Shown here: piece after piece, positions 4,501 through 20,666 of the stretch
Numbering within the stretch: the first letter of the stretch is position 1
How the letters are laid out: each line of letters opens with the position of its first letter
Virus record (IMG/VR): IMGVR_UViG_3300044825_003855
Coordinates: 1 to 20,666 of that record
Direction: 5' to 3' (one strand)
Length of the DNA: 20,666 nucleotides
From: a virus
Made by a program: the position numbers and the translations under genes
Notes under the pieces: generated by a model
What the model was told of the DNA's origin: nothing
Seen by the model: the letters and a program-made list of their open reading frames with translations, nothing else
Database searches by the model: none

Positions 4501-7500
4501 TATGATTGTATTTTGGATTATTCAAAAAATCAATTAATTCATTAATAGTTGATCTTTCTAATAAAGACATTATTATTTTTTGCACATTACTTGGTAACGG
4601 TTGACTTTTGTAGCCTAATAAATTTACAAATCTTTGATAAAATTGTTTTTCTACACTTTGTATATCTTTAGTTGAGTATGGAACAAGAGGAAAATTTTTC
4701 TGTATAAGAGGAAATTTTCGTTCCGGAGGATTTGTTGAGTTTTGCGTTATTTGTTGTGACGTTGGTTTATTCGTTGTTTGTTGTGACGTTGGTTTATTCG
4801 TTGTTTGTTGTGACGTTGGTTTATTCGTTGTTTGTTGTGACGTTGGTTTATTTGTTGTTTGTTGTGACGTTGGTTTATTTGTTGTTTGTTGTGACGTTGG
4901 TTTATTTGTTGTTTGTTGTGACGTTGGTTTTGTTGTTGATCTATTCCATCCATTATCATCTGGTTTAATTTTTAAATAGTTTAATGCTTGTTCAATTTGT
5001 TTATCCTGAAGTGCTCGGTCTGGTTCAAGTTTAAGTATTTCTATAACAGGATCTAATTCAGATTTTCCAAGTTCACGTAGATTCCCCCAACTATTTTTAT
5101 CATTTCTTCTTTGATCTCTAGCTCGAACGTCATTTATGTCGTCAAAACGTTTTAGTTCTTGCGAATGTGCTTTAGAATTTGGAAAATTCTTATGATTGTA
5201 TTTTGGATCATTCAAAAAATTAATTAATTCGTCAATAGTTGATTTTTCTATTAAATCCATTATTATTTTTTGCACATTACTTGGTAACGGTTGACTTTTG
5301 TAGCCTAATAAATTTACAAATCTTTCATAAAATTGTTTTTCTACACTTTGTATATCTTTGGTTGAGTATGGAACAAGAGGAAAATTTTTCTGTATAAGAG
5401 GAAATTTTCGTTCCGAATGTTTTGTTGTTCTAAGTGCTATTTGAGTATTTGTTAAGTTTGGCAAAAATCCTCCCATATCTGAAATAACATTTGGAACAGC
5501 AGCAACTAAAGCTCCTGGTCCATAATTAATGCCAGAGTCATTATTTTCTCTATAACCAATTCTAGAATCGTCCTGAACATTACTGGAAGAGCGTTTTTTA
5601 GGATTTCTATTTTCAATTTGCTTTAATAACTCAACTTGAGTTTGTAAATCTATTGTTGTTTGTGAGACATTTTGTTGTATTCCTTGGAAAGTTGATCCAA
5701 CTCCCACCATAGTTTTGTTTATATCGTTTACTGTTCTCTGAGTCTCGATAAACTGTTTGTTAGCTTTAATTTGAACTTGAACTTGATTTTCTATAGCTAA
5801 ATTAGTTTTTGACAATTCACTTACAACTTTTTTAACTGAATCTCCAGCTTTATCAAAAACTTTTTGTAAATCATCGTTAGCGCTATTATATTCTTTTTTT
5901 AAATTATCTCGAACAGTATTAACTTTTTGAACAAATACTTGTCCGCTAGGTAATTGCTCTAATAAATTTTGTTCTTGTACTTGAAGTGATCTAATTCTTT
6001 CTTTGTCTGAAATTACTCTTTGTTGATAATCTATAGCTGCGTTCAAACCATTGCTAATTTCATCTATAAATTCGCTGATTGTGCCAACAAATTTAGTAAA
6101 CTCATTTTCAGAAATGCCTTTTAAAGCTGTGTTTATTTTTGATTTATAAGAATTAAGTTCTAATTGAATCCTAGCTTTCTTGATTTCAATTTCAATATCT
6201 TTTAATTGTTTGAACAAATTAAAATTGTAATCTGCTATTTGTTGGTTTAGCTCTTTAATTTTTTGCCTGTAATCATATCTTGAGCGCGCTAATTCTGCTT
6301 TGTTTTGAGCTAGTGCCGCAGTATCGTCTCTAACTTGTTTTTGCAGATCTTGATATTCTTTGGCTTGTTCAGTGGTAAGTTCACTTTCAGGAATACCAGA
6401 CATTCCTCTTAAAGCTTTTATTTTGTTATTTAAGACAAGATCTAACCCAAATATTTTATCTTCTATTTCATATATTTTGCCTTCAGAACTTGCAAAATCA
6501 ATGTCTCCTTTTGTAATATTATTTAACGAGTAAGGAGTTTGATTAATTCCCTTAAAAGCTGCGTCGTATAAACTTGATTCTCTAACTGATGCAGAAATTT
6601 GTATTTCTGACAAATATTTTTCATAACCTATTTCAACTTTGCGTAAAGCTTTTTTAGTTTCTGCATAAATTAACTCTAGTGGTTTTACAGGAATTAAACT
6701 TAAAAAGATTTTTTTAGCTTCTTCTCCTATTTTTTGTATTTTTTTACCTTTTTCTATAAAAATGTCTCTTATTTCTCTTGGGTAATCTTTAGCCTCTTCT
6801 TGTATTTTTTTACCCTGTTCGATCATGTCGTCAAAATTTTTAATTATTTTGTCATTTTCTTTTGATAGCTTGCTTCTTTCTTTAAGCTTAATGTTTATGT
6901 CTTTGTCAATCTTTTTAGCTTTTTCTTGTGAATCATAAGTATTTTGATCAACTAAAGCTATTTTCTTTGCTGTTAATTCATCAATTTCTTTATCTATTTT
7001 ATTAATTTTTTCGTTATTTTGTTGTAAACTTTGTGCTGTAGATTGTTTTCTCTCTGGTGTTAAACCATGAGTTTGTATTTCTTTTTCATAAGATACAATA
7101 TTGTCGTCAAGACTCTTTAAGTTTAAAATTGTTTGTGTAGCAGCTTCTGTCATTCTAAAGTCAGTATCCCTGACAAGAGCTTTTTTAAGTTTGTCATTTT
7201 TTTCTAAATAATCTGCAATTCTTTTTTGAGGTTTTTTCGCGCCAGCAACATATTGAACATCTTCTGCAAGTCTTCCTATTGGATTAAAATTCAATCTTAA
7301 AAAATGGCGATGATCAATATCGTCAGGAGTTTTACCAAAATTTTTAGTTAAATCATAAAAAATGCCTTCAAGATGGTTTAATCCTTCTTTTGAGTTTTCT
7401 GCTAAAGCTCGGTTTACATTTTTGATTGCATCATCAAATTTATATCCTTGAGATTTAGCACCAAAAACAAAAGCAATGTCTAATTCCAGTCCTTTAGAAG

Positions 7501-10500
7501 GAAGTGAATCTGATAAATTTCTAACTCCAGTTGCTACTTTGTCAATAGTATTGCCACTATTTTCTACAGCTTTATCCATTTTTTTGAAAGATTCACCTAT
7601 TGACGTTAAAGAAGCATTAATCGCCAATGCCATTTTATTGATTGATTCTTGTACTGGATTGCTAAAATCACTTCTAGCTAAAAACATTAAACCCAAAGCA
7701 AGTGCGGCTTCAATTGCTAACACACTTAATGCTTTTAATCCTTTTCCTATTCCAGAAATTATATTAGATAAAACCGACCCCCATGCGCCTCTAGCTTGTC
7801 CAGCTATTGCAGCATCTGGATGGAATACCAATTGAATTGCTTTTATAAAACCAGTTGACATTACAGATGTTTTAAAAGCTTGTAATGATGTAGTAAAATT
7901 AGTCCATGCATTTGTAGCGCTAAGAACAATACTTGATTTAATACCTCCTAAAACTGTTTTTAATCCATCTCCAATAGTTTTAAGAGGGTTAGTTTGTAGC
8001 TTGGTCCACAATTCTGCTGCTGATGTTTTAAATGACAAGAAAGCAGCTCCAGTTCTATCTATTAACGGCTTAATAGGAGAAGCGTCATACATTCTTCTCA
8101 TTTCCTGCCCAAAAGTTGCACCTGCACTAGTACCTCCCGCTCTAGTGACTCCTGTTGGTGCTGTTGTTGGTGCTGTTTTATTGTTTTCAAAATTATCAGC
8201 TTCTTTAAAAACATCTTGGAATTTGTCAAAAGTAGTAGCGAATAAAGATCTTCCTCCCGCTCCTTTAAGAGATGCTCCTTTTATAAAGGATCCCATTAAT
8301 ATACCAAGTTCTGCAAATCTTTTAAAAATTGAGCCAAGCAAAGGTCCTCCAATAATTTTTAACAATTTTAGCAATTGCTCAAACATTAATATTAACGCAC
8401 CTAGCTCTACCATTCCTGGCTTAATTGGTTTAAAGAAAAATCCAAGAATATTTTCAAGAGCATTTTTTTCCGGTTTTTTGTTGCCACCAATAACAACATC
8501 GAAAAATCCTTTGCCATCTCCTTTAAACATATTTCCATTAAAGAGATTGCCTAACCCATTAAAACTAGCTTTTAATCTGTCTAATTGGGTAATTATCATA
8601 ACAACAAAGTTGTATGTACCTTTTGACATATTTTCCATAACAGAGTTTTGCGCACCCAGCCAATCATCTGCTATGTCTGCAAAAATCCCTAAAAAGAATG
8701 GACTGAGAGTTCCTACGAACGCAGCAAGTGAAGCAATTATACCATTCCCTAAACTTATTATAAAAGTTTTAACTGGTGCTATACTAAGAATAGTTACAGT
8801 ACCAGCCAAAATTACTGCTGCTGCACCTACAATAAAACTTCCAATGATTTTAATAATATTTTCTAAAGATTTATTAATTAAATCTGCGGCTCCTGCAAGT
8901 ATGTTTGTTATCCCAGTAAATAATCCACCAAAAATATTTGTTAATTTAATATTTATCTCTGCTCCAACGTTTTGTAATTTATTAAAAGATGTAACAAAAT
9001 TGTTTGTTCCTTTTGCCATTTCACCATATTCACTTAATAATTTATCTGCAACTTTAGGCATAACTTCTTCAGACATTAAAGCTCCTGTTGCACTCATTTG
9101 AGATAATTGAGCAGTGCTAACTCCTACTGATTCAGCAAAAATTCGCATAGCGGGAGGGAATTTTTCACCCAACTGCTGTCTTAATTCTTCCATTGAAATT
9201 TTGCCTTTAGACAGCATTTGATTATAAGCGAGAAAAATTGAATTTGCGTCTTCTTGAGAAATTGATAAAGCAGCTATAGACGCTGTTATTCCTTCATGTA
9301 ATTTTTTTACACCTTCACCTTCTAGCTTTGTTCCTTGCGCTGCAACAGCTAATTGACTATATGATTCAAGTGATGTCATTATAGGTGTGTTATATTGTTT
9401 CGCCATATTTGTAGCGTATTGAAATTCTGCTTGTCCACTACCAGCTTTACCTCCCAAAAAATTAAAACGTGTTTGCAGCGATTGTATTTTCAGCATAGAT
9501 TGAATTAAAAGTTCAACTCGTTGATGAAGTGCAGAAACAGCATTTCCAATAGCATCAAAAATTGGAGTTAATGGAGCCATCATTGGACCTATAGCTGTAA
9601 GAAAAGTGCCGATAGGAGCAAAAACAGATCCCAAAGATACAACAAAAGACATTATATTAGTTTGAAAGTCTTCTTTATCATCTGGATTTATAGCCTGTAG
9701 CGCATCTCTCCTAAATTGAAATCCTACTGCTTGCCAGAAATCTTTAAAAATAGCTCTAGGAACAACAACGCCTCGCTTCATGCGATCTATTATATTGTTA
9801 AAGATTTGCGCAGGATTTTCTGTCCCAATAGCTTTATCAACTTCTCTCTTGATGTCTGCTCCGACATCTTTCCACTTACCTATAGTTTCTTGAAAACCTT
9901 TAATTAAAGCTTGTCCAATATTCATTCCTTCTGCTGTAAATGCTTTATGAAACGCAGATATACCTAATAATAAAGCAGTCATCGCCATTTTTATTTGAGC
10001 TGGATTTATGCGTATTCCCAAAACAGCTGCAATGTTTTTAATTCCAGACGTTCTCATTAACGTTCCAGCAGTACGAGTTGTTAAATCAATAGCTTGATCT
10101 ACATTTCCAGAAGCGTAAGCATTTGCTATGTTAACTACTCTACGACCTAAGCCTTTAGAAGAAAATAGTCCAGAGTTTGCACCAGCACCAATAATTGTTT
10201 TAATTAATAAATCTCTAATTTCACCAAAGATTTTACTATTTTTTTCATAAATTCCTCTTAATAAATTACTGTTTTTTGGATTTTTGATAGTAATACTGTC
10301 AAAAAATGTTTTTAAAACTTGTTCAGCTAATTCTTTAGCTCCTTTTTGTACTTGCTGAGTTCCTTCAATTTGAGTTCCCTTGATTCCAACAGAAGAAATG
10401 TTTTCTCTAATTTGATCTCTAATTACTGTTCCTATAGAATCCCGTGCTTCGTTTTCTCCTAAAGCAGGTAAACGATCTGAATATAAAGTTGCTGCTGCAT

Positions 10501-13500
10501 TTCCTAATCCTCCAACTAATTTACCACTTAATATTGGTCCAATGGCAGGTATTTTCCCAATAAATGGCAACATGTTTTTCAAGAACGGAATTTTTGAAAA
10601 CATTTGGCTAATCATAAATTGTTGTGGAATTTCAGAAATTATTTTTGTTAACAAGTTCTTTTGTCCTATAGATCTTCTGCCTAAGTCTATTCCACTTACA
10701 GAATGAATCATTTTACGAATAAATCCATCTTCTTGAAATAAATTATTGTTTTCAAAAGATTTTTGGAAAAACTTTCCTATCTTAGATGCTTGGCTTCCTA
10801 TTATTCCTGGCAACATAGGAGCTAAGAAAGGTAATATATCCATAATACCTTTTTGTCCATTTACCAAGCCAAATAAAGTAGACGATGTTTTAAATAATCC
10901 CAAGTTAGAAAACGCTCCAAGTGGCAATCTTCCTGTTCCCATAAAATTTTTCTCAACTAAATTTTGAACAGTCTTGCCAACTGCTTTACGTAAGAAACCT
11001 GCAATTGAAAAAGAACCTTGCTGAGACGTTTCACTAAAGCTGGATATAATACTATCAAATATTTGTTTTAGTAAAGGTTCCCGTCCTTTATTTACTGTTT
11101 TGCTAGCATCTTTTGTAATATTTTTAATATTTGCATATTTTATACCTTGTTCTTTTGCTCCTTTTCTCGCTTGTTTATATATGTTTGTAATTTGCGTTAA
11201 AGTTTGTTCTTCTGTTAATTTACCTTCATTAAAATCTTTTGCAAAATCTTGAAGCAGATTGTCTATTTGATTTCTTCTGCGTTTATGATCTAACTTGTCT
11301 CTTTTACTTATAGTAGGATCTGCCAATATAGCGTCAATACTTTTCTTGTATTCCTCCGAGATTTTGTAACTCGCTAATACAAGTGTAGAAATATTTTTTC
11401 TTGAGTTTCTAATAACAGAGAAAAGATCTTCGTATTTTAGCTGTGGTGTTTTAGGTCTTCTGTTCATCAATCCTTTAAACTCTATATTAGCTTCCCTGTT
11501 TGCACCTATAATTGTTCTAGAAAAATTCTTTCCTAATGCTTCTTGTACTGTTGCATTAGTAGAAGATCTTCCCATATTTGTCATTGATTGAATATTCCTG
11601 CTACGAATACGATTCAATTCTTGACGCGCTTCTTTGTCATCAGCAAATTTATTTTCACGATAATCTTTGGCAAAGTTTTTAAGATCTTGATCCATTCTAT
11701 TTCTACTTGCTTTAAGCCGTTGTTTTTCAGCTTTGGAAACAGATGGATCTTTTAGTAAAGTATCAACAATTTTTTTGTATTCTTCAGATATTTTTTTCCC
11801 TGAAAAAGCTAAAGCAGCAATAGCAGCATCTCCAAAACTATTACCAAAGTTAAGTCCTATTGAACGCATGATTTTAGATGGAGATTTAATACCTAACACG
11901 TTTTTAATGCTTTCAATTAGAAAAGAAAATCCTTTGACAATTAAATTACTTTTTGATTTAAAATCTATAAATCCATCAAAGAAACTTTTTACTAAATTTA
12001 ATCCTATTCTAAAAAAATTTTCTTGAAATGTTTTTATAGGTAGATTATTTATTTTATTAGAATTATATTCTTTAGAAACTGGATTTTCTATATTTGGAAT
12101 TTCTGGATTTAACATTGAAATATCTTTTCTTTCTTCTGCTATTAAATCTTTGTAATTATTAGAATTAAATTCTTCAACAACCAAATCTTTTATATTTGGA
12201 ATTTCTGGATTTAACATTGAAATATCTTTTCTTTCTTTTGTTATTAAATCTTTGTAATTATTAGAATTATATTCTTCAACAACCGAATCTTCTATATTTG
12301 GAATTTCTGAATTTAACATTGAAATATCTTTTCTTTCTTTTGCTATTAAATCTTTGTAATTTTCAAGTTTACTTTTATAATCTTTAAAACCTTCATTTTC
12401 TGTTATTCGTGACGACATGTTGTGTAATTTTTCAGTCCATAATTCTAAAACAGAATCTATTTCTTTAAATGCATTGTTTAAAATAGAATCTAGTTCTTTA
12501 ATTGCATCTTCAGTAGATGAAAATTTACCTTCTTTATAATCTTTCCTAAAAGTCTGAAGAGATTCGTCGTTTAACATATTTACTTTACTAGAAAATCTTG
12601 TTTTTAATTTATCACCTTTTTCGTATTCATCCTCATCCCAATAAGTATGATCGGGAATATCTCTATTGTCAAACAAAGCACTAATTTTTCCTTGAGATTT
12701 TTCAAGTACTTTGCTTGCTGCAAGAATTTGTTTATCAATAAAATCGTTTGATGAGTTTACTAATTCAATAAAATCGTTTGATGAGTTTACTAATTCAATA
12801 AAATTCTTTGATGGGTTTTCTGATTCAAATTTAGAAAAAGCTAAATTTTTTACATCTGGAATTTCTGATGTTTTAATATTTTTTATATCTTCTATTTGAG
12901 AAATCGCAGTATCAATCTCTTCATCTGTATAGTTAAATTCAGGATTGTTTATTTTTGCATTTACTCTTTTAGAATATATGTTTAAAACAGAATCTATTTC
13001 CTCAATCATAAAATCTAGCATAAGATCCATTTCTTTGGCTGCATCTTCAGCAGATGAAAATTTACCTTCTTTGTAATTTTCTTTAAAAGATTTAATAAAT
13101 TTATTGTTCGGTATATTTTGAAATATTTCCATTAAATCATTAATTTGATCTTGGTCGTCAATTTTTTCTTTTATAACAGGATTTTTTTTAAAAGATTTAA
13201 CAAAAGGCATAGCAGCACGTATTACTGGATTTTTAAGTATAGTATCAAACAATGGGCTTTCAGCAGCCAATTTTTCTTTGGACATTATAGGCTGAGATGA
13301 GGAATTATTTAATTTTTCAAAAATTCTGTTTTCTTCAAATAGTTTAATTGCCGCAAAAACTAGTGTATCAATAGAACCAGCAGGATTTTCTTTAAAAGAT
13401 TCAACAAAAGGCATAGCAGCACGTACTAATGGGCTGTTTTCTTTAAAAGATTTTAATTTAGATTTAACAAAAGGCATAGCAGCACGTATTACTGGATTTT

Positions 13501-16500
13501 TAAGTATAAGCATATTATCAAACAATGGGTCTTTAGCCATAGTATCAAACGAGTCAATCTTACTAAGTATGCCATTTTTTATAGATTCAGCTCTTTCTTT
13601 GGACGTTATAGGCTCAGATGAGGAATTATTCGATTTTTCTCTGTATTCTTCAAATAGTTTAATTGCCGCAAAAACTTTTTTATCAATAAAATCAGCAGGA
13701 TTTTCTTTAAAAGATTCAACAAAAGGCATAGCAGCACGTACTGCACCACGTACTAATGGGCTTTTTTCTTTTAAAGATTTTAATTTAAATTTAACAAAAG
13801 GCGTAGCAGCACGTACTAATGGGTTTTTAAGTATATCACCAAATGGGTTTTCAGCCGTAGTATCAAACATCTCACTAAACAAATTAAACTTACTAAGCAT
13901 GCTATTTGTTATAGATTCAGAGGAAATTATACGCTGAGATAACAAATCATTCAATTTTTCTCTGTATTTTTCAAATACTTTATTTGCCGCAAAAACTTGT
14001 TTATCAATAAAATCATCTGACAAACTATCAATAGAGTTTACCGATTTATTAATTTGATCTTGGTCGTCAATTTTTTCTTTTATAGCAGGATTTTCTTTAA
14101 AAGATTTATCAGCCATAGTATCAAACGAGTCAATCTTACTAGGCATGCTATTTGTTATAGATTCAGAGGAAATTATAGGCTCAGATGAGGAATTATTCGA
14201 TTTTTCTCTGTATTTTTCAAATAGTTTATTTACCGCAAAAACTTTTTTATCAATAAAATCATCTGACAAACTATTAATAGAGTTTACCGATAATACTGAT
14301 GCAATAGCTTGTTGAACTTTATCTTTATTACTAATTAATCCAATGACTAATCCAGCAATAATTGCAGCACCAATACCAATAAATACTTTAGATGGAGATT
14401 TAATACCTAATACGTTTTTAATACTTTCGACTAGAAAAGAAAATCCTTTAACAATTAAATTACTTTTTGATTTAAAGTTTATAAAACTATTAAAAAAGCT
14501 TTCAACTAAATTTGACCCTATTTTTAGAAAAGTTTTTGGTATTTCCTGAATTTGTTTTGGAATTAAATTAAATATATTTCCAATACTAAACTGTTGTTCT
14601 TTTGTATTCTTGTAATTTAATTTTTGCGATTTTAAATTATTTCTTTTATTAGATTTATCCCCGTACATGTAATCAAGAAAGTCTGGATGTGTAAAAACAG
14701 TTTCTTCGTTTATTGGCTTGTTTTCCTTTTCTAACTGTTTATAGATTTTGGAGTAAAGTCTTTTTAACTCTCTTTCTTTTTTAAGCGGTACTTGTCTTTG
14801 CTGTATATAACTTTGCCCTCCAATTATATCGTGTAAGCTATCACTTACTTTTATTCCACCACTAGGATTAATGCTTACCAAACCAGACGTTCTTCTTTTA
14901 AATTCTTTGTCAGACATTGCACTAAGATTAGACTTCGTGACATTAACGTGCCTGCCATCGCTATCCAATAATACCTCTTTCCTAGCGATAGCTTCTGCCT
15001 CTATTTGTTTTCTGGTTTTACCTAGATTTGTATGCCTTGTGTACCCGCCCAAGTCATCTTTTTGGAGATTTAATGATTTTGCAATAGCAGGAAATTTATC
15101 TAATAAAGAGATTAATTTAGAATTTATACTAGCAGGCAATGGAATAGTGACACCTTCTGGAAAACTCTTTTTTTGTTTTGACTTTGCACCTGCCCAATCA
15201 TAGACATCTACTGCATTTATTCCAGTTTTTGTTTTAACTACACCAAAACCCCCAAGAGTTAGCTGTAGAGATCTGAGATCTTTCAAAAGTAGATCAAACT
15301 GAGGTTTTTTACTTGAATTGGCAAACTTAGATTCACTGTTAAACGCACCTAAGTAACTATAGCCAGACTGTTGCTTACCTTTGTCAGCTAAGAAAACACT
15401 AACAGCATCTATTATGGGAGACAAAGAGTTTCTATTATTAAATTTGATTACATCTGCATTCCCTCTGTAAAATTTACCAAGATGGGACATTGGGATATTC
15501 TCCTGTACAGAAGTAGGCTTTTTGCCTAAAATTGGCAATACTGTTGACAACGTTTTGCTAATTGTAATTAAAAAACTACCTATATTTTGAGATAATTCAC
15601 TAGAGTCTTTTGAATCTTCTCTTGAATTTTTAAAAATTTGTTTTACATTAGTTGCATAAGCTTTATTCTTGTCATCAACAGCGTTTTCTATTAAATCATC
15701 AAAAGATTCCGCACTTTTTTCTGTTGTATTTTCAATAGTAGATACTACTTGATTTGCAGCTTTTTTGATATTATCTTTGTTTGCAATTAAACCAATAGCT
15801 AATCCCGCTGTTATTGCAGCACCAATAGCAATAAATACTTTAGATGGAGATTGAATCTCAAGTTCTTTTTTGAAAGAATTTATTATTTCTTTTGCTTTTT
15901 CTGTACTAACTTCTCCAAAATTTATTTTAGAAATACCTTGATTAAATCCTTGAAGTATTTGCTCATCAACCTCAGGCTCTTTTCCATGTATGTAATCAAG
16001 AACCTGTGAAGTAGAATATTGTGGATTATTTTGTGCTTCAAATTGTTTTATTATCTCATTTTCAAATTTTCTTTTAGATGTAGCCAATTCTGATTTAAGC
16101 GTTTTACTTCCAGAAGTTAAAGAAGATTTAGCTGTTCCAATTTGTCGTATATCTTCCGAAACCGCTCCTTTTTGCTTAGCAAGTTCTTGTAATCTTTTAA
16201 TTTCTTCTATAAGTTCTTGTTTTTTTGATTCAAAAAATTTATAGGCTTTTATAACGTCTTCATACTTTCCAAGTTCTGTTTGTCTATGGATCTCAAATTT
16301 AGTTAATTTTACAAATCCTTGATTTGACTTTTTAATTTCTTGCGCACGAGATTTTATTTCTTCAAGACTGTTTTCTGATGTAATGTTTATGTCATTTTCG
16401 TTTACAGCTTGATTTGATTGTAAATTTACTAAACCAGAAAAAGGATCTGGTAAAGCATCTTTTATTTGTAAAGATGCTTTCTTTTCAGCTTCTTCTTGCA

Positions 16501-18256
16501 AATTTGATTGTGTTACATCATTGCTGGCTTGACTTAATTGTGGAACTTTACTACTACTCAAAGGAATTAAAGATGTCAACGATTTATTTATTTCTTCAAC
16601 TCTAGAAGAAAAATTTTCCATCGCTGATATTGTGCGTCGAAGTATTTGACTTAAATCTTCAATTAATTGAATTATTCTATTTGCACGGACAGATAAAGCA
16701 TTGTCTGCATCACTTGCAGTTTGACCTATTTGTGAATCTGTGCTACTTGCAACTTGACCTGTTTGTAAATCTGCGCTATTTACGGGTTGATTTAATGCTT
16801 GCGAGTTTATTCTATTTATGTTATTTATTAATTCAATTATTTCCTGATTTAATTGTTTAATTGTTTGATCATTATTTTTAAATGTGGCACTTAAATCACT
16901 AATACTTTTTTGAAAATCTTCAATAGACGTACTTGATTTATTTAAAGCATTGTCAAAATTATCGAAAGACGCTGTGTTTTGTTGTGTGTTTGTAATTCCT
17001 AAAGCATTGGTTATTTTTGCAGATGCAGCATTACTTAATGCGTTTGCACCTGATGACAAAACATTTGTGTACAACTTTTTAAAAGTTAAGCCTAAAATAG
17101 TCTGTAAAGCATGTTGATTTTGTGCGGTTTGCGGAATATGCAAATTTGATTTTTGAGTTTGTGGAGTTGCCTGTGGAGTTGCCTGTGGAGTTGCTTGTGG
17201 AGTTGCTTGTGGAGTTGCTTGTGGAGTTGCTTGTGGAGTTGCTTGTGGAGGTTTTTTACCAAAAATACCTGTGATAAAATTTCCTGTACTTTGTCCGTAT
17301 TTTTTAAAATCTATATTAGCGTTAACTTTAATAGCACTGCTAAGCCCAGATGCAAAATCTCCGGCTATTTGATTAGTAATACCTTCAAAAAAACCAATAG
17401 CTAAACTTTTTATTGGAGTAGCAACTGCTTTTAAAAACTGATTTTCTTTCTTTTCAGCTTGTTCTGGCTGTTTTATATTAGATATTTTATCAACCAAAGT
17501 AGTATTACTAGATTGCTTAAACCCTTGAGTTACAGCTTCAGATATTATCTTAATAATATCTTTCTCTGACTTTTTAAAACCACCAACTAAACTTCTTTCA
17601 ATAGTTCTTGCAAAAAGTTTTTGAATAGCTACTTCAGCAGAATCTCGTGGTCGTCCTACTGGATTTTTAACTTCACCATAATTTTTTCTCTCTTCTTCAG
17701 GTTTACGAGGCCTCCCCGGCTTTCTCTTTTCTATATTTTCTTCTATGCTTTGTTCTTCTTTTGCTTTAATCGCAGCTCTTTTGCTTCTTAACTCTTTTGT
17801 TCCCGCTGCTTCGTCAATATCGCGAGAATATACATTTATGGGATTATTTTTATAATAATTTTTAAGCTCGTTTAATTCTTGTTTTTTCTGTTTCAATAAA
17901 TTGTTTAATTCATCATCTTTTGTGCGGACGACGATTGGATTTTGCTTGTAATATCCTACAACTTCTTTTAAATGTTTTTGTTTTCTTTCTAAGTGTTTAT
18001 TTAATTTAGTTAAACTTTCATCATTAACAGTAACCGAGATTTTATTTTTATCTGAAAAAATATTTTTTAAGTCTTTAGCTGCTAATTGAGCATCTTTCCT
18101 GGCATCTTGAGTATTAATTAAAAGTTTAGTTTTTCCTGAAAAAATATCTTCTATTTGGTTAACAACTTTTTCTGCATCTTGTTTAGCAATTGCTAATGAC
18201 TTGTCAAAAGCTGTTTTATCTAATGATAACTCAACAATTAATTTACCTAAGTTCAT
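1589..18256 (-). CDS. Giant phage tail tape measure protein (5555 aa)
   Basis: This is the scaffold that sets tail length and lies inside the tail tube. The N-terminus (MNLGKLIVELSLDKTAFDKS) is typical of tape measure proteins. Two AT-hooks sit at about 177-186 and 198-206, and a PQAT repeat linker at about 337-366. SPSK-plus-hydrophobic modules occur at about 800, 1286 and 2123. Residues about 2910-3090 hold the classic tape measure domain (SxxDANSxFLxxNQMLSKGKxSxEELRxQLGExxP). Hydrophobic segments follow at about 3125-3195 and 3505-3530, with long coiled coils from about 3600 to 4350 and 4700 to 5200. The C-terminus has a hydrophobic Gly-rich block (GGLLGGLFSAIGGLFGGGG), a TPGERVLTVEQ motif and GGIV/GGVV repeats, as in other tape measures. 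The frame is intact for 16.7 kb. The start has no strong Shine-Dalgarno. Confidence 0.95.
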   Translation of the reverse strand: MNLGKLIVELSLDKTAFDKSLAIAKQDAEKVVNQIEDIFSGKTKLLINTQDARKDAQLAAKDLKNIFSDKNKISVTVNDESLTKLNKHLERKQKHLKEVVGYYKQNPIVVRTKDDELNNLLKQKKQELNELKNYYKNNPINVYSRDIDEAAGTKELRSKRAAIKAKEEQSIEENIEKRKPGRPRKPEEERKNYGEVKNPVGRPRDSAEVAIQKLFARTIERSLVGGFKKSEKDIIKIISEAVTQGFKQSSNTTLVDKISNIKQPEQAEKKENQFLKAVATPIKSLAIGFFEGITNQIAGDFASGLSSAIKVNANIDFKKYGQSTGNFITGIFGKKPPQATPQATPQATPQATPQATPQATPQATPQTQKSNLHIPQTAQNQHALQTILGLTFKKLYTNVLSSGANALSNAASAKITNALGITNTQQNTASFDNFDNALNKSSTSIEDFQKSISDLSATFKNNDQTIKQLNQEIIELINNINRINSQALNQPVNSADLQTGQVASSTDSQIGQTASDADNALSVRANRIIQLIEDLSQILRRTISAMENFSSRVEEINKSLTSLIPLSSSKVPQLSQASNDVTQSNLQEEAEKKASLQIKDALPDPFSGLVNLQSNQAVNENDINITSENSLEEIKSRAQEIKKSNQGFVKLTKFEIHRQTELGKYEDVIKAYKFFESKKQELIEEIKRLQELAKQKGAVSEDIRQIGTAKSSLTSGSKTLKSELATSKRKFENEIIKQFEAQNNPQYSTSQVLDYIHGKEPEVDEQILQGFNQGISKINFGEVSTEKAKEIINSFKKELEIQSPSKVFIAIGAAITAGLAIGLIANKDNIKKAANQVVSTIENTTEKSAESFDDLIENAVDDKNKAYATNVKQIFKNSREDSKDSSELSQNIGSFLITISKTLSTVLPILGKKPTSVQENIPMSHLGKFYRGNADVIKFNNRNSLSPIIDAVSVFLADKGKQQSGYSYLGAFNSESKFANSSKKPQFDLLLKDLRSLQLTLGGFGVVKTKTGINAVDVYDWAGAKSKQKKSFPEGVTIPLPASINSKLISLLDKFPAIAKSLNLQKDDLGGYTRHTNLGKTRKQIEAEAIARKEVLLDSDGRHVNVTKSNLSAMSDKEFKRRTSGLVSINPSGGIKVSDSLHDIIGGQSYIQQRQVPLKKERELKRLYSKIYKQLEKENKPINEETVFTHPDFLDYMYGDKSNKRNNLKSQKLNYKNTKEQQFSIGNIFNLIPKQIQEIPKTFLKIGSNLVESFFNSFINFKSKSNLIVKGFSFLVESIKNVLGIKSPSKVFIGIGAAIIAGLVIGLISNKDKVQQAIASVLSVNSINSLSDDFIDKKVFAVNKLFEKYREKSNNSSSEPIISSESITNSMPSKIDSFDTMADKSFKENPAIKEKIDDQDQINKSVNSIDSLSDDFIDKQVFAANKVFEKYREKLNDLLSQRIISSESITNSMLSKFNLFSEMFDTTAENPFGDILKNPLVRAATPFVKFKLKSLKEKSPLVRGAVRAAMPFVESFKENPADFIDKKVFAAIKLFEEYREKSNNSSSEPITSKERAESIKNGILSKIDSFDTMAKDPLFDNMLILKNPVIRAAMPFVKSKLKSFKENSPLVRAAMPFVESFKENPAGSIDTLVFAAIKLFEENRIFEKLNNSSSQPIMSKEKLAAESPLFDTILKNPVIRAAMPFVKSFKKNPVIKEKIDDQDQINDLMEIFQNIPNNKFIKSFKENYKEGKFSSAEDAAKEMDLMLDFMIEEIDSVLNIYSKRVNAKINNPEFNYTDEEIDTAISQIEDIKNIKTSEIPDVKNLAFSKFESENPSKNFIELVNSSNDFIELVNSSNDFIDKQILAASKVLEKSQGKISALFDNRDIPDHTYWDEDEYEKGDKLKTRFSSKVNMLNDESLQTFRKDYKEGKFSSTEDAIKELDSILNNAFKEIDSVLELWTEKLHNMSSRITENEGFKDYKSKLENYKDLIAKERKDISMLNSEIPNIEDSVVEEYNSNNYKDLITKERKDISMLNPEIPNIKDLVVEEFNSNNYKDLIAEERKDISMLNPEIPNIENPVSKEYNSNKINNLPIKTFQENFFRIGLNLVKSFFDGFIDFKSKSNLIVKGFSFLIESIKNVLGIKSPSKIMRSIGLNFGNSFGDAAIAALAFSGKKISEEYKKIVDTLLKDPSVSKAEKQRLKASRNRMDQDLKNFAKDYRENKFADDKEARQELNRIRSRNIQSMTNMGRSSTNATVQEALGKNFSRTIIGANREANIEFKGLMNRRPKTPQLKYEDLFSVIRNSRKNISTLVLASYKISEEYKKSIDAILADPTISKRDKLDHKRRRNQIDNLLQDFAKDFNEGKLTEEQTLTQITNIYKQARKGAKEQGIKYANIKNITKDASKTVNKGREPLLKQIFDSIISSFSETSQQGSFSIAGFLRKAVGKTVQNLVEKNFMGTGRLPLGAFSNLGLFKTSSTLFGLVNGQKGIMDILPFLAPMLPGIIGSQASKIGKFFQKSFENNNLFQEDGFIRKMIHSVSGIDLGRRSIGQKNLLTKIISEIPQQFMISQMFSKIPFLKNMLPFIGKIPAIGPILSGKLVGGLGNAAATLYSDRLPALGENEARDSIGTVIRDQIRENISSVGIKGTQIEGTQQVQKGAKELAEQVLKTFFDSITIKNPKNSNLLRGIYEKNSKIFGEIRDLLIKTIIGAGANSGLFSSKGLGRRVVNIANAYASGNVDQAIDLTTRTAGTLMRTSGIKNIAAVLGIRINPAQIKMAMTALLLGISAFHKAFTAEGMNIGQALIKGFQETIGKWKDVGADIKREVDKAIGTENPAQIFNNIIDRMKRGVVVPRAIFKDFWQAVGFQFRRDALQAINPDDKEDFQTNIMSFVVSLGSVFAPIGTFLTAIGPMMAPLTPIFDAIGNAVSALHQRVELLIQSMLKIQSLQTRFNFLGGKAGSGQAEFQYATNMAKQYNTPIMTSLESYSQLAVAAQGTKLEGEGVKKLHEGITASIAALSISQEDANSIFLAYNQMLSKGKISMEELRQQLGEKFPPAMRIFAESVGVSTAQLSQMSATGALMSEEVMPKVADKLLSEYGEMAKGTNNFVTSFNKLQNVGAEINIKLTNIFGGLFTGITNILAGAADLINKSLENIIKIIGSFIVGAAAVILAGTVTILSIAPVKTFIISLGNGIIASLAAFVGTLSPFFLGIFADIADDWLGAQNSVMENMSKGTYNFVVMIITQLDRLKASFNGLGNLFNGNMFKGDGKGFFDVVIGGNKKPEKNALENILGFFFKPIKPGMVELGALILMFEQLLKLLKIIGGPLLGSIFKRFAELGILMGSFIKGASLKGAGGRSLFATTFDKFQDVFKEADNFENNKTAPTTAPTGVTRAGGTSAGATFGQEMRRMYDASPIKPLIDRTGAAFLSFKTSAAELWTKLQTNPLKTIGDGLKTVLGGIKSSIVLSATNAWTNFTTSLQAFKTSVMSTGFIKAIQLVFHPDAAIAGQARGAWGSVLSNIISGIGKGLKALSVLAIEAALALGLMFLARSDFSNPVQESINKMALAINASLTSIGESFKKMDKAVENSGNTIDKVATGVRNLSDSLPSKGLELDIAFVFGAKSQGYKFDDAIKNVNRALAENSKEGLNHLEGIFYDLTKNFGKTPDDIDHRHFLRLNFNPIGRLAEDVQYVAGAKKPQKRIADYLEKNDKLKKALVRDTDFRMTEAATQTILNLKSLDDNIVSYEKEIQTHGLTPERKQSTAQSLQQNNEKINKIDKEIDELTAKKIALVDQNTYDSQEKAKKIDKDINIKLKERSKLSKENDKIIKNFDDMIEQGKKIQEEAKDYPREIRDIFIEKGKKIQKIGEEAKKIFLSLIPVKPLELIYAETKKALRKVEIGYEKYLSEIQISASVRESSLYDAAFKGINQTPYSLNNITKGDIDFASSEGKIYEIEDKIFGLDLVLNNKIKALRGMSGIPESELTTEQAKEYQDLQKQVRDDTAALAQNKAELARSRYDYRQKIKELNQQIADYNFNLFKQLKDIEIEIKKARIQLELNSYKSKINTALKGISENEFTKFVGTISEFIDEISNGLNAAIDYQQRVISDKERIRSLQVQEQNLLEQLPSGQVFVQKVNTVRDNLKKEYNSANDDLQKVFDKAGDSVKKVVSELSKTNLAIENQVQVQIKANKQFIETQRTVNDINKTMVGVGSTFQGIQQNVSQTTIDLQTQVELLKQIENRNPKKRSSSNVQDDSRIGYRENNDSGINYGPGALVAAVPNVISDMGGFLPNLTNTQIALRTTKHSERKFPLIQKNFPLVPYSTKDIQSVEKQFYERFVNLLGYKSQPLPSNVQKIIMDLIEKSTIDELINFLNDPKYNHKNFPNSKAHSQELKRFDDINDVRARDQRRNDKNSWGNLRELGKSELDPVIEILKLEPDRALQDKQIEQALNYLKIKPDDNGWNRSTTKPTSQQTTNKPTSQQTTNKPTSQQTTNKPTSQQTTNKPTSQQTTNKPTSQQTTNKPTSQQITQNSTNPPERKFPLIQKNFPLVPYSTKDIQSVEKQFYQRFVNLLGYKSQPLPSNVQKIIMSLLERSTINELIDFLNNPKYNHKDFPDYPVHSSELKRFEDRNKVEARNTTREQINNPVKILNGIRTFNRLRKITDLSNVLGIIEPRPDYALQNKQVEEALKYLGIKTEQKPRSASKPITNQTPITTKKILPGPENQASKIPKTIPFIRRNGQPIKVTNPENSVPNLDKPKPNTQVRQLINQSTKIQEQTAAAILKNAMDLADNNRAANQRSMSLDKQFPLTTPQSDSLSEVQNLISKYAGDPKSNASNTAISSIRELETLERKLTTSIDSDKLSLERLPDTTQNSIEQLKKFADQLKGYPLYKQQILDMIILIQQDAEDTKKAITARLRTTQNALKMFLDKKNQIQQQIKTEETVNTQIGENDFNINELAIQISQYESQISLLRQQLNLTWDGKNDLLRIDLERKMADLNAQKKYYENIKKLLERRKLPMADSTRLTEEGYNKEKAEFDNILQKEKQANEDDFKSNTTISEKITNVRQNEDNKLLKEQINNNAYQISVINIESEITALREKLIKSNIPQEEKNKYDASLDVLKQNRIAELDLTREQEKRNFARSIELLKIQNYRNLGGNEFVANAQERKIKIEEKRDDYAKQIQSIDHDSSLDAATKEIRKKEAKEKLDAEIKEIENSAKSIVNSIKDLVRNSLINDLSSGFTDVIMGVQKLDDVLNNLAQNILSGLINMAIKMLLQSLVGEGGLLGGLFSAIGGLFGGGGKKASTAFTGGEVTSTGVVPNYAGGGIIQSINQAVLKEKSANGGIKPVLAVLTPGERVLTVEQNKRFEDAGLHRVIDYNVLLEERRFNRTSNYMKGNGNSEIGNYADGGIIEKIKTYSDGGVVSSNALIEERQFNRTNNYMKGNGSSEIRNYADGGIVEKIRTYSSGGVVSPEEKQFHADGGIVEKIRTYSSGGVVSPEEKQFHRIMNYSSGGVVNAGVAPTINTENTSNSNVVNIPINIESNGNNASSNGLDASQLRSAVQSAVLNEIQRQQRQGGTIPKR
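1830..1983 (-). repeat. 78-bp tandem duplication in tape measure C-terminus
   Basis: Bases 1830-1905 and 1908-1983 are identical over 76 bp at an offset of 78, giving two copies of a 26-residue unit containing ADGGIVEKIRTYSSGGVV. A diverged longer relative lies at about 2068-2190 and matches 1924-2046. The unit is in frame, so only protein length changes. Confidence 0.9.
4245..5415 (-). repeat. Duplicated ~150-residue domain in tape measure
   Basis: Two copies of a domain beginning ERKFPLIQKNFPLVPYSTKD lie at about 4245-4725 and 4940-5415. The stretch 4571-4725 matches 5261-5415 at an offset of exactly 690 bp, with only about two mismatches seen, while the rest of each copy has diverged. Conservation is therefore uneven, which suggests gene conversion or strong selection on the first ~52 residues of each copy. 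The 27-bp tandem array sits between the copies. Confidence 0.9.
4751..4930 (-). repeat. 27-bp tandem array encoding NKPTSQQTT
   Basis: Seven copies of a 27-bp unit start at 4751, 4778, 4805, 4832, 4859, 4886 and 4913, with only single-base differences. On the coding strand they give the nine-residue polar unit NKPTSQQTT, likely a flexible or extended linker between the two duplicated domains. Copy number could vary by slippage without breaking the frame. Confidence 0.95.
9000..9520 (-). other. Canonical tape measure domain within giant protein
   Basis: Approximate residues 2913-3086 carry the motif series found in the tape measure N-terminal domain of many siphophages and myophages: FxYATNMAKQY, then DANSIFLAYNQMLSKGKISM, EELRQQLGEKFPPAMRIFAE, a GVSTAQLSQM segment and EEVMPKVADKL. 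In most phages this domain lies near the protein start; here nearly 2900 residues precede it. It is the best single proof of the gene's identity. Confidence 0.9.
11871..14546 (-). repeat. Repeat-dense expansion zone with duplicated SPSK module
   Basis: Bases about 11871-12030 and 14385-14546 are two copies (offset 2514) of a module encoding FKSKSNLIVKGFSFL followed by ESIKNVLGIKSPSK. A third, shorter SPSKVF relative is near 15817-15860. Between the copies are a 102-bp unit repeated three times (about 12061-12362, 34 residues, motif KERKDISMLN), a 30-bp unit at about 12737-12800 (NSSNDFIELV), and many imperfect copies of RAAMPFVKS/ESFKENP and of a DDFIDKxVFAxxKxFEKYRE unit at about 13150-14290. 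All remain in frame. Confidence 0.9.
17160..17249 (-). repeat. 12-bp tandem array encoding PQAT
   Basis: Seven full copies and one partial copy of the 12-bp unit TGTGGAGTTGCY read as PQAT repeats at about residues 337-366 of the tape measure protein. Copies are nearly identical, differing at one pyrimidine. It separates the AT-hook-containing N-terminal region from the rest of the protein. Confidence 0.95.
17639..17728 (-). other. Two AT-hook motifs in tape measure N-terminus
   Basis: The segment encodes KRKPGRPRKP (about residues 177-186) and NPVGRPRDS (198-206). The GRPRKP core is the classic AT-hook, which binds the minor groove of AT-rich DNA. The second copy has the GRPR core but weaker basic flanks. 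Such motifs are not a usual feature of tape measure proteins as far as I know. Confidence 0.75.
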
Positions 18257-18430
18257 ATAATCAAAAAAATAAATTATATATATAAAGTTGCCAAAAAAAC
18301 TAAATTTAATCTAATAGTCTAAAACAAGTTAAGGAGTTATCGCTCCAACCAACAAAACAAAAATGGCATTTTTAGTTAATCTTGCGTAGTTTTAAAGTAT
18401 TGTGCTGCTCAAAAAACTAGTTATGTTTTT

Positions 18431-18455
18431 TTAATCAGTATTATACATTGATTAA
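18431..18455. repeat. Near-palindrome, possible operator
   Basis: TTAATCA (18431-18437) and TGATTAA (18449-18455) are perfect 7-bp inverted arms. Inside them GTAT and ATAC (438-441 and 443-446) continue the dyad with a 2-nt offset. It lies 52 bp upstream of the first rightward promoter and could be a protein-binding site; no matching regulator is identified. Confidence 0.4.
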
Positions 18456-18506
18456 TTAACTCAATATTTCCAATCTGCTGTGCTGCTACAAAGCTTAGTT
18501 GCATTA

Positions 18507-18536
18507 TTGACAAGCAATTAAAATATTTTTTATAAT
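18507..18536 (+). promoter_or_regulatory. Sigma70 promoter P1 for AT-hook gene
   Basis: A perfect -35 TTGACA (18507-18512), an 18-bp spacer and a perfect -10 TATAAT (18531-18536) face the AT-hook gene. Predicted transcription starts near 18543, leaving about 100 nt of leader. Confidence 0.65.
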
Positions 18537-18590: not shown

Positions 18591-18619
18591 TTGACAGTTC
18601 ATAAAAAACAATTTACAAT
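18591..18619 (+). promoter_or_regulatory. Sigma70 promoter P2 for AT-hook gene
   Basis: TTGACA (18591-18596), a 17-bp spacer and TACAAT (18614-18619) form a near-consensus promoter, with transcription expected near 18626, about 19 nt before the ATG at 18645. The -35 hexamer is the right arm of an inverted repeat TGTCAA (18578-18583)/TTGACA, a possible repressor site. This promoter explains why the in-frame TTG at 18591 is not the start codon. Confidence 0.7.
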
Positions 18620-18644: not shown

Positions 18645-19157
18645 ATGAAACTACCATACGTTGATCTCAAAGAAAAGTGTATAAAAACAAGCGAAGGTAA
18701 AGTCGCTTTGTCCAAAAGCAGTATAAACGCTGCTTTAATGGGAAAAACTTTTCTTGTTAAAGGAGAAAAATTTAATTATCGAATGAAATTCATAAAATCT
18801 AAATCAGAGCCTAGTAGATGGACAGCTGAAAAAAGGATTGGCTTGGTCAATGTAAAGCATTATCTGTCGACTGAAGAATGCTTGTCAATTAATGATTTTG
18901 ATGATATTTACGTAAAATATCAAAACAAAATGGATGAAGAAGGAATAACGCCTAAACCACAAGGAAGACCTAGGTTAGCGCCTGAATTTAGAAAAAAAAG
19001 AAAATATTATCCACCAAAGAAAAATGTTTTACCGGATAATATCTCACCAATAGAGAGAAAATCAGGAAGGCCAAAAAGCCAAAAAACTATTCAAAAAGAA
19101 TGGGAAAAGCTAAATGGATTATCAAGAAAGAGAGGTAGACCGAGAAAAGAAGTATAA
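18645..19157 (+). CDS. Small basic protein with three AT-hooks
   Basis: This 170-residue protein has a folded-looking N-terminal half (about 1-95) that I do not recognise and a Lys/Arg/Pro-rich C-terminal half. The latter carries three AT-hook cores: KPQGRPR (104-110), RKSGRPK (138-144) and RKRGRPRK (161-168). The last is canonical. AT-hooks bind the minor groove of AT-rich DNA, so a DNA-binding role (transcription factor or nucleoid-type protein of the phage) is a reasonable inference. I chose ATG 18645 because the in-frame upstream TTG at 18591 is the -35 box of a strong promoter. The Shine-Dalgarno is weak (AAGA). It is transcribed divergently from the tape measure gene, which has two similar motifs. 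A hammerhead ribozyme begins about 19 nt after the stop. Confidence 0.8.
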   Translation: MKLPYVDLKEKCIKTSEGKVALSKSSINAALMGKTFLVKGEKFNYRMKFIKSKSEPSRWTAEKRIGLVNVKHYLSTEECLSINDFDDIYVKYQNKMDEEGITPKPQGRPRLAPEFRKKRKYYPPKKNVLPDNISPIERKSGRPKSQKTIQKEWEKLNGLSRKRGRPRKEV

Positions 19158-19175: not shown

Positions 19176-19245
19176 TAAACCCACCTGACGAGTTCATTTG
19201 CAGCGATGGACGAAACTGCCGAAAGGCAGTCGTGGGAGCTGTTTA
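19176..19245 (+). ncRNA. Type I hammerhead self-cleaving ribozyme
   Basis: All invariant hammerhead residues are present: CUGACGA at 19185-19191 (the CUGANGA box), GAA at 19212-19214, the A19215-U19230 pair that starts stem III, and C19231 at the cleavage position. Stem I is CCCAC (19180-19184) with GUGGG (19232-19236), then UAAA (176-179) with UUUA (242-245). Stem II is seven pairs, GUUCAUU (192-198) with GAUGGAC (205-211), including two G-U pairs. Stem III is ACUGCC/GGCAGU closed by a GAAA tetraloop. Stems II and III are closed and stem I is open, hence type I. Cleavage is expected between 19231 and 19232. Loop II (CAGC, 201-204) is complementary to the stem I bulge (GCUG, 238-241), as in fast natural hammerheads. 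It lies between two genes. Confidence 0.92.
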
Positions 19246-19252
19246 CACCCAC
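19232..19252 (+). promoter_or_regulatory. Post-cleavage 5' hairpin next to the ribosome binding site
   Basis: GUGGG (19232-19236), which begins exactly at the predicted cleavage product's 5' end, is complementary to CCCAC at 19248-19252, forming a 5-bp stem with an 11-nt loop. The same GUGGG forms ribozyme stem I with an identical CCCAC at 19180-19184, so the two pairings exclude each other. The Shine-Dalgarno AGGAGG starts at the very next base (19253). Confidence 0.65.
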
Positions 19253-19261
19253 AGGAGGGGT

Positions 19262-19555
19262 ATGAAAGCATTAGAACGTCCAGCACAATGGCACGCCAAT
19301 AGGCTGGAATCATTCAAAGATAAATTAATTCCATGCTATTGTGTTTCAGTCATCGTCTTAGGAGATGACAACGAGATGGAGGAACAGAATAGATATTTTC
19401 CAGCCACCAAAGCTGGATTAGCAGCTGCTAAAGCTGTTAATGGGAGACACTTGTACAAAACCGAGATAGAGGCAAGATATGTGTTGCCTCATGGAGTGAC
19501 GATGCAATCACCAGAGTTTGAAAACTGGTGTAGAGAGTGGAGAGTTTTGCTGTAA
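19262..19555 (+). CDS. Unassigned 97-residue protein
   Basis: The ATG at 19262 is preceded by a very strong Shine-Dalgarno AGGAGGGG (19253-19260, tight spacing). An in-frame GTG at 19232 is rejected because it lies inside the ribozyme at the cleavage site. The protein is soluble, with a hydrophobic strand (CYCVSVIVLGDD, 25-36), three Cys (25, 27 and 90), a helical Ala-rich stretch (PATKAGLAAAKAVNGRHLYK, 47-66) and a Trp-rich end (FENWCREWRVLL). I do not recognise a family and assign no function. Its message would be released by ribozyme cleavage. Base composition is visibly less AT-rich than the tape measure gene. Confidence 0.75.
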   Translation: MKALERPAQWHANRLESFKDKLIPCYCVSVIVLGDDNEMEEQNRYFPATKAGLAAAKAVNGRHLYKTEIEARYVLPHGVTMQSPEFENWCREWRVLL

Positions 19556-19629: not shown

Positions 19630-19646
19630 GGCTCCAAAACTTTTTT
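19626..19646 (+). terminator. Candidate terminator before the next promoter
   Basis: TTTTG (19626-19630), loop GCTC, CAAAA (19635-19639), then C and six T. The stem is AU-rich and weak, but its position, after the 97-residue gene and 12 bp before a consensus promoter, fits an end of transcription unit. Confidence 0.45.
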
Positions 19647-19657
19647 CTCTAAACCCC

Positions 19658-19686
19658 TTGACGGTAAAATAAAAGTAGTTTATATT
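19658..19686 (+). promoter_or_regulatory. Sigma70 promoter for small-gene operon
   Basis: TTGACG (19658-19663), a 17-bp spacer and TATATT (19681-19686), each one base off consensus. Transcription would start near 19693, about 29 nt before the ATG at 19722, and would include an AGGAG at 19704-19708. Confidence 0.75.
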
Positions 19687-19721
19687 AAAAGAGTAATTGA
19701 TTCAGGAGTAAAAAGAAAAAG

Positions 19722-20093
19722 ATGAAGTTCTATCGAGAGATGGAATACACGTTTATTGACAACGAATGGCACGAGCTGTTCGCTGACGCTGCTGCTGGTG
19801 AAGGTGACTTCGACTGGGATAACGTCGAAGTCAGCGATGAAGCAGCGTTCTTTGAAGCTCCAGCGATGGAGCATGTTGGTAAACTTCGTTGGAAAACCGA
19901 CAAACACGTCTATCACGCGGTGGCAATAAAGTCCACCCCGTGGGGATTGGAGTATGACGTTATGCCAGAGAAAGGCAACGGATTTAACGTTGTCAACTTT
20001 TGGCAACAGCAAGTCGGACTAATCTGGAGTCATCCAGAAGTCCGTTACGTTCCCAATGATGATGCAGTAGACATTGACGACTGCTACCACTAA
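19722..20093 (+). CDS. Unassigned acidic 123-residue protein
   Basis: The protein is strongly acidic and rich in aromatic residues, with an Asp/Glu-rich middle (GEGDFDWDNVEVSDEAAFFE, about 27-46) and an acidic C-terminal tail (DDAVDIDDCYH). There is no signal peptide or membrane span. I recognise no family; its acidity would permit a DNA-mimic or protein-inhibitor role, but that is speculation. ATG 19722 follows an AGGAG at 19704-19708 with long spacing (13 nt); a second Met at 19740, just after GAGAG, is an alternative start. It follows a near-consensus promoter and is followed 12 nt later by the next gene, forming an operon. GC content is visibly higher than in the tape measure gene. A perfect 10-bp inverted repeat lies within it at 19805-19833. 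Confidence 0.75.
   Translation: MKFYREMEYTFIDNEWHELFADAAAGEGDFDWDNVEVSDEAAFFEAPAMEHVGKLRWKTDKHVYHAVAIKSTPWGLEYDVMPEKGNGFNVVNFWQQQVGLIWSHPEVRYVPNDDAVDIDDCYH
19805..19833 (+). repeat. Perfect 10-bp inverted repeat inside coding sequence
   Basis: TGACTTCGAC (19805-19814) and GTCGAAGTCA (19824-19833) are exact reverse complements with a 9-nt spacer. It would form a stable mRNA hairpin near the start of the 123-residue gene, or a protein-binding dyad. Confidence 0.7.
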
Positions 20094-20455: not shown

Positions 20456-20666
20456 ATGAACAATCAAGATTTCTTTGGAGAAGACTTTGTTGGACAAGAT
20501 TTAAGTGGAAAGGACTTGTCTAACAGCAGCTTTTCAATGGGAGAGCTGAGAGGAGCGAACTTGAGTGGAGTAGACGCAAAGTTTACTTCTTTTAAGTATG
20601 CTGATTTAAGCAATGCCAATTTAAGCAATGCTGATTTAAGAGGAGCTGATTTCAGATACACCAATC
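20456..20666 (+). CDS. Pentapeptide-repeat protein (3' end outside window)
   Basis: The first 70 residues are visible, from ATG 20456 behind a good Shine-Dalgarno AAGGAG (20446-20451). From about residue 9 to the window edge the sequence keeps a strict five-residue register, x(D/N)(L/F)xx, with twelve units such as QDLSG, KDLSN, ANLSG, ADLSN, ANLSN, ADLRG and ADFRY. This folds into a right-handed quadrilateral beta helix. Family members are common in cyanobacteria, and some mimic DNA and bind gyrase, but most have no known function and none can be assigned here. It follows a terminator, and no clear promoter is seen in the 30 bp between, so it may rely on read-through or on a promoter I cannot see. 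Confidence 0.9.
   Translation, partial: MNNQDFFGEDFVGQDLSGKDLSNSSFSMGELRGANLSGVDAKFTSFKYADLSNANLSNADLRGADFRYTN

Follow-up and report, generated by a model that had tools for sequence, protein, structure and literature searches.

Why phages keep hammerhead ribozymes has been described as an open question since 2011 (PMC3088659, PMC6155905). The same question is posed by a virus record of 20,666 bases (the window, by which we mean the whole stretch of DNA that was analyzed), in which a hammerhead motif is situated between a gene for a 170-amino-acid protein with three AT-hook-like GRP motifs (18645-19157, plus strand) and a gene for a 97-amino-acid protein (19262-19555, plus strand). What might a self-cleaving RNA accomplish at this location, and for which of its two neighbors?

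The window is very probably a fragment of a cyanophage genome, since the dCTP deaminase it encodes most resembles the enzymes of phages that infect filamentous cyanobacteria such as Dolichospermum, Anabaena, Nostoc and Cylindrospermopsis. Most of the window is occupied by an open reading frame of 5555 amino acids on the minus strand (1589-18256), which contains the short repeats TPQATPQA and KPTSQQTTN and is probably a phage tape measure protein. The last part (20457-20666) holds the start of a pentapeptide-repeat protein, two of which stand in a row in a related contig (L002).

A Type I Hammerhead Ribozyme Ahead of a Small Phage Gene

By sequence criteria, the element at 19180-19236 on the plus strand is a genuine type I hammerhead ribozyme with a predicted cleavage site. 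The complete core and three intact stems named in the original prediction are all located within this interval. Specifically, stem I pairs CCCAC (19180-19184) with GTGGG (19232-19236), wherein the 5′ strand tolerates wobble pairing in relatives (CCCGC in contig L041 and TCCAC in L379) and the 3′ strand is invariant in the family and supplies nucleotides 1-5 of the predicted cleaved mRNA. The core sequences CTGACGA (19185-19191) and GAA (19212-19214) were identified by descriptor match. Stem II (GTTCAT/ATGGAC; 19192-19197 and 19206-19211) encloses a loop at 19198-19205, and stem III (ACTGCC-GAAA-GGCAGT; 19215-19220 and 19225-19230) includes the A15.1-U16.1 pair. The hammerhead fold sets the predicted cut between 19231 and 19232, immediately after C17 (19231), a position that is C or A in relatives. 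The element therefore carries the CUGANGA...GAA core together with A15.1-U16.1 and H17 (19185-19191, 19212-19215 and 19230-19231) within a three-helix architecture with an open stem I.

Two additional elements on the same strand had been absent from the original prediction. The first is a covarying pseudoknot of 4-5 base pairs between GCAGC in loop II (19200-19204) and GCTGT in the 3′ tail (19238-19242), a kind of hammerhead pseudoknot that Perreault et al. 2011 described (PMC3088659). The second is another copy of CCCAC (19248-19252, hereafter CCCAC2), which offers GTGGG an alternative partner and would thereby give the cleavage product a 5′ hairpin. This putative hairpin arm adjoins a Shine-Dalgarno sequence, AGGAGG (19253-19258), as it also does in relatives. 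The predicted cleaved message begins with GUGGGAGCUGUUUACACCCACAGGAGG, and the ATG at 19262 lies 30 nt downstream of its first nucleotide. A descriptor scan of both strands of the window for type I and type III hammerheads revealed no others.

The strict type I descriptor, which demands at least 4 base pairs per stem, matches the window once. The same descriptor yields no matches in 200 Markov-1 random windows or in both strands of 3.3 Mb of reversed phage sequence, which bears out the initial judgment that a chance occurrence is very unlikely; a relaxed 3/3/3 descriptor yields four matches in 200 such random windows. The covariance model originally proposed as a check, Rfam RF00163 (Hammerhead_1), aligns from end to end with a score of 23.9 bits (E-values of 8e-4 with all families and 221 nt, and of 1.9e-5 with RF00163 alone and the whole record). 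The full-length match was obtained, but its score is lower than the gathering threshold of 34 bits, at which Rfam gives no match, and this outcome had formally been counted in advance as a refutation. The comparison is an unfair test because the cut-off misses nearly all sampled phage type I hammerheads. Only one of ~35 strict type I hammerheads from 13 phage loci passes it, and the conserved relatives of the window hammerhead score 21.6-27.6 bits. The gathering score is a curated cut-off that is unfit as a functional criterion for phage hammerheads, which by the same count are strongly under-annotated.

The base pairing was examined in 11 family copies that were aligned by hand and all checked against the DNA. 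Stem II exhibits compensatory changes at four of its six pairs (pairs 3-6) with no broken pair, stem III exhibits them at pairs 3-5, and stem I varies by wobble only. In the pseudoknot, pairs 2-4 covary and pairs 1-4 include no non-standard pair. Across the three stems and these four pseudoknot pairs, a single non-standard pair, a C-A, is present in one copy. Decayed relatives do exist, namely a copy in L041 (2539-2664, minus strand) whose stem III is broken, and a copy in L379 (1886-1960) in which stem II contains mismatches and the CCC portion of CCCAC2 is gone. A terminator, and no gene, lies behind this second copy. These examples, along with the sub-threshold Rfam score, are what might be expected if the window motif were likewise a dead relic or a chance match. 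Given an intact core, covariation, perfect synteny in the family and the empty controls, we regard such an explanation as extremely improbable.

The Ribozyme Stays with Its Downstream Gene

Two promoter-like sequences precede the AT-hook gene on the plus strand: TTGACA-18-TATAAT (18507-18536), a candidate defined by its agreement with the consensus at 12 of 12 positions, and TTGACA-17-TACAAT (18591-18619), which agrees at 11 of 12 positions and aligns with a promoter repeat of these phages. A further plus-strand site (19658-19686), a copy of the repeated phage promoter, precedes the gene that starts at 19722. In contrast, a consensus scan of the plus strand between the AT-hook gene and the 97-amino-acid gene found no promoter. 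Because consensus sites are found at the neighbors and none is found between these two genes, the 97-amino-acid gene appears to lack a promoter of its own, and the proposal that the hammerhead resides in the AT-hook transcript holds up. The intergenic gap is 104 nt (the stop codon ends at 19157 and the ATG starts at 19262) rather than the 130 bp first reported.

Some of the surrounding sequence is shared more widely. A promoter-like block with the sequence TTGACa-n17-TATATT and conserved flanks recurs before several genes of these phages (window 19642-19716; L002 2676-2729; L130 3286-3361 and 7102-7146; L132 1690-1762). Also, a non-coding segment of the window (18426-18531) shares 80% identity with a portion of a gene-like region in L005 (3843-3953), and may be what is left of a decayed gene beside the AT-hook promoter.

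The 97-amino-acid protein, which has a KALERP N-terminus, has relatives in five viral contigs with 37-93% identity (83-93% in L002-L005, and 37% in L368 and L369). It matches no Pfam, PHROG or PADLOC entry and no known fold, even though its structure model is confident (pLDDT 85.7). A hammerhead precedes every intact copy of the gene, with the predicted cut 30-31 nt before the ATG, and the copy in L005 is truncated and has lost the hammerhead. In L368, three small genes are preceded by three consecutive hammerheads, L369 has two hammerheads in succession, and hammerheads of the same type are located before other genes in L237 and L041. L003 and L004 belong to a single 86-kb contig (IMGVR_UViG_3300042908_001045), whose opposite ends hold inverted, 87% identical copies of a module composed of upstream gene, ribozyme and 97-amino-acid gene, both ending in the repeated promoter block.

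Nucleotide-level similarity to relatives (blastn) extends from the 5′ edge of stem I (19178-19179) through the 97-amino-acid gene. The gene upstream in L002-L004 differs from the AT-hook gene of the window, and homologs of the AT-hook gene are found elsewhere in two related phage contigs, where they do not adjoin the ribozyme. Judging from these comparisons, the selected unit is the ribozyme plus its downstream gene, and not the AT-hook gene, because the same gene is retained downstream, another gene is present upstream, and homology starts at the 5′ edge of the ribozyme. A tail pattern (GTGGGA..ACACCCACAGGAG) gave additional matches at L133-L136, which were dropped because they are situated in unrelated coding-like sequence without a hammerhead.

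A nucleotide search of named phages, tblastn searches with the 97-amino-acid, AT-hook and upstream proteins, and a hammerhead covariance model search of six isolated Nostocales-type phages each returned no match, and the family thus appears to have no cultured relative. A search of cellular genomes with an alignment of the 97-amino-acid protein gave no confirmed relative.

The module boundary bears directly on what the cut might be for. The original prediction held that the ribozyme would serve to separate two messages, as in the processing model of Perreault et al. 2011 (PMC3088659). In this case the AT-hook message would acquire a 3′ end fixed by the cut (a 2′,3′-cyclic phosphate) and the CCCAC repeat would have no role. 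Co-transcription of the two genes, the tandem ribozymes between genes in L368, and the published cleavage of phage-type polycistronic RNAs (PMC3088659) are all consistent with this proposal. As a purpose, however, separation accords poorly with a ribozyme that remains with the downstream gene while the upstream gene changes, with the retention of CCCAC2 despite changes in spacing, and with a general enrichment of helices at product nucleotide 1 (see below). We therefore consider simple message separation quite unlikely as the full explanation.

Small genes in L368, L369 and L379 occur among two or three consecutive ribozymes, an arrangement that invites another proposal, wherein tandem ribozymes would free gene-length RNAs whose 5′-OH and cyclic-phosphate ends are joined into circles by a host ligase such as RtcB. 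This is very improbable. The window, L002, L003 and L004 each have one ribozyme before the 97-amino-acid gene and none behind it, and Perreault et al. sought circular products and found none (PMC3088659).

A Second Possible Partner for the Stem I Strand

GTGGG and CCCAC2 can form five Watson-Crick pairs in 11 of 11 family copies, with a spacing of 11-19 nt, and in every family copy that heads a gene this pairing is positioned directly before the Shine-Dalgarno sequence. Since both strands are invariant, the product hairpin has no covariation within the family, and support for it comes from this conservation and from comparison across families. An alternative role for CCCAC2, as an extension of the Shine-Dalgarno sequence, was rejected, as it is presumably not complementary to the 16S tail.

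For the cross-family comparison, pattern scans of IMG/VR provided at least 256 type I hammerheads by descriptor, and 220 after similar ones were removed. Among the matches listed, 75% have an open frame whose start is 15-60 nt beyond the cut; at random positions the figure is 24%. Each product was then scored for a perfect downstream partner to its first four nucleotides, with tails swapped between ribozymes as the null. A helix from product nucleotide 1 is present in 87 of 220 among the matches listed, versus 35.7±4.9 with swapped tails, whereas in these 220 listed matches helices that begin at nucleotides 3-6 occur at about the chance rate and nucleotide 7 displays a smaller excess. When at least 6 nt are required between the end of the arm and the start codon, helices from nucleotide 1 are found in 46 of 159 leaders among the matches listed, versus 17.1±3.8 (z 7.6), and the excess in these 159 declines to chance level from nucleotide 5. 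The hairpin is not universal, being present in ~29% of phage hammerhead leaders versus 11% expected among the matches listed. One phage contig (L108, 2399-4650) was observed to carry four pistol ribozymes and three hammerheads on one strand between small genes.

Two simpler sources of the enrichment were considered. It arises in part from the loop II pseudoknot, but the signal persists when the pseudoknot arms are masked (61 of 220 versus 31.2±5.2, among the matches listed). Likewise, phage relatedness lowers the signal and does not abolish it: with one ribozyme per distinct 5-nt end, the helix is found in 25-28 of 95 among the matches listed, versus 13±3.2 (z 3.7-4.7), in a weaker test where offsets 7-8 are also in some excess. 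The arms themselves vary among phages (GTGG/CCAC, GCGG/CCGC, GGCA/TGCC, TGGC/GCCA and others), and this variation is equivalent to covariation across families.

When growing transcripts of the window RNA were folded at 30 C with a partition-function model from which the pseudoknot is left out, stem I was predicted to form with a probability of 0.93 immediately after the emergence of GTGGG and of ~0.03 once the leader is complete, at which stage the product hairpin has a probability of 0.65. The fold switches similarly for L368a, L368c and L369c, shifts more weakly for L237, and does not switch for L002 and L004, where stem I persists; without the pseudoknot, L003 and L041 form little stem I. 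For isolated 3′ products, the hairpin is the minimum-energy fold in L002, L003, L004, L237, L041, L368 and L369, and in the window product it competes with CCC/GGG pairing that involves the Shine-Dalgarno sequence (probability ~0.59).

These predictions could also be accommodated if CCCAC2 were an off switch, such that cleavage is possible only before CCCAC2 emerges, and the speed or pausing of RNA polymerase decides between a cut RNA and an intact two-gene mRNA. Equilibrium folding does proceed from stem I to the alternative hairpin in the window and in the three RNAs that resemble it, and the change comes as CCCAC2 and the Shine-Dalgarno sequence emerge. Yet the folding model omits a pseudoknot that stabilizes the ribozyme, no switch away from stem I occurs in L002 or L004, and a helix with this function need not start at product nucleotide 1, where the enrichment peaks. 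On balance, we consider an off switch unlikely.

A Candidate Self-Trimming mRNA Leader

The position of the ribozyme, the module boundary and the re-usable 5′ strand point to one job, which is to make and to cap the mRNA end of a promoterless gene. We propose that this type I hammerhead acts as a self-trimming mRNA leader that leaves a 5′-OH hairpin, and hence is a natural counterpart of the engineered RiboJ insulator, a reading that we hold to be moderately probable. Transcription from the AT-hook promoter would yield a two-gene RNA in which the ribozyme folds on leaving RNA polymerase and cuts between 19231 and 19232, such that the downstream message begins with a 5′-OH, 30 nt before its ATG. 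GTGGG would then be exchanged from stem I to CCCAC2, forming in the cell a hairpin with no unpaired 5′ nucleotide beside the Shine-Dalgarno sequence. This re-pairing should oppose re-ligation and make cleavage hard to reverse.

A 5′-OH is a poor substrate for 5′-phosphate-dependent decay, and the terminal hairpin should further shield the 5′ end. Terminal hairpins are known to stabilize bacterial mRNAs, as cited for RiboJ (PMC6206723). Translation of the downstream gene would be standardized regardless of which gene is located upstream. The exchange of upstream genes exactly at the ribozyme edge provides indirect support for the idea that downstream expression may be independent of upstream sequence.

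A broader proposal, that a large share of phage type I hammerheads are natural insulators, self-trimming leaders in which the 3′ strand of stem I serves again as the 5′ side of a hairpin protecting the new mRNA end, is more tentative, and we judge its prospects to be slightly short of even. If true, phages could place genes behind any neighbor, which would explain why they keep hammerheads. Furthermore, the RiboJ layout would have arisen in nature before it was engineered, and many ready-made insulator parts would be at hand. The five-nucleotide element CCCAC2 offers a handle for testing leader function.

Comparison with Known Systems

The window element shares with type I hammerheads of RF00163 the core, the order of stems, the open stem I, the A15.1-U16.1 pair with C17, and a full-length alignment to the covariance model. 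It differs in having long stems II and III, a pseudoknot between loop II and the tail, and a score under the threshold. Self-cleavage in a 5′ leader governs the downstream gene in the glmS ribozyme and in other ribozyme-based control systems, and the predicted self-cleavage before the 97-amino-acid gene resembles this arrangement. However, no ligand is suggested here, and the predicted message would become more stable rather than being degraded.

Hammerheads close to genes and start codons are already known from phages, and the window ribozyme itself is a new member of this group. Perreault et al. 2011 (PMC3088659) report hammerheads between phage genes and near start codons, among them HHphage, which precedes a helicase gene by 13 nt in haloviruses HF1 and HF2, and the ardA triple of A. 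tumefaciens, and propose that they process long transcripts. The window hammerhead has the placement described there, between phage genes on the transcribed strand, but differs from those examples in being a fixed module of ribozyme and gene in cyanophages. A second stem I strand able to pair with the new 5′ end of the product ahead of a Shine-Dalgarno sequence was not found in the part of that work (PMC3088659) that was searched. In the open-licence literature searched, we likewise found no report of a stem I strand re-used as a conserved product hairpin, of helix enrichment at nucleotide 1, or of a module boundary at the ribozyme edge.

The closest functional parallel is RiboJ, which joins the sTRSV hammerhead to a 23-nt hairpin, leaves this hairpin at the terminus of the RNA, and raises mRNA and protein levels (PMC6206723). 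The order of hammerhead, hairpin and ribosome-binding site is the same in both arrangements, and each would have a hairpin at the 5′ end of the message after the cut. RiboJ is an engineered part whose hairpin was added as a separate unit, whereas the hairpin of the window is natural and uses a strand of the ribozyme. Because of this shared strand, ribozyme and hairpin are predicted to be mutually exclusive in the window element, unlike in RiboJ. By analogy, then, the window element would work like RiboJ without being a member of the RiboJ class.
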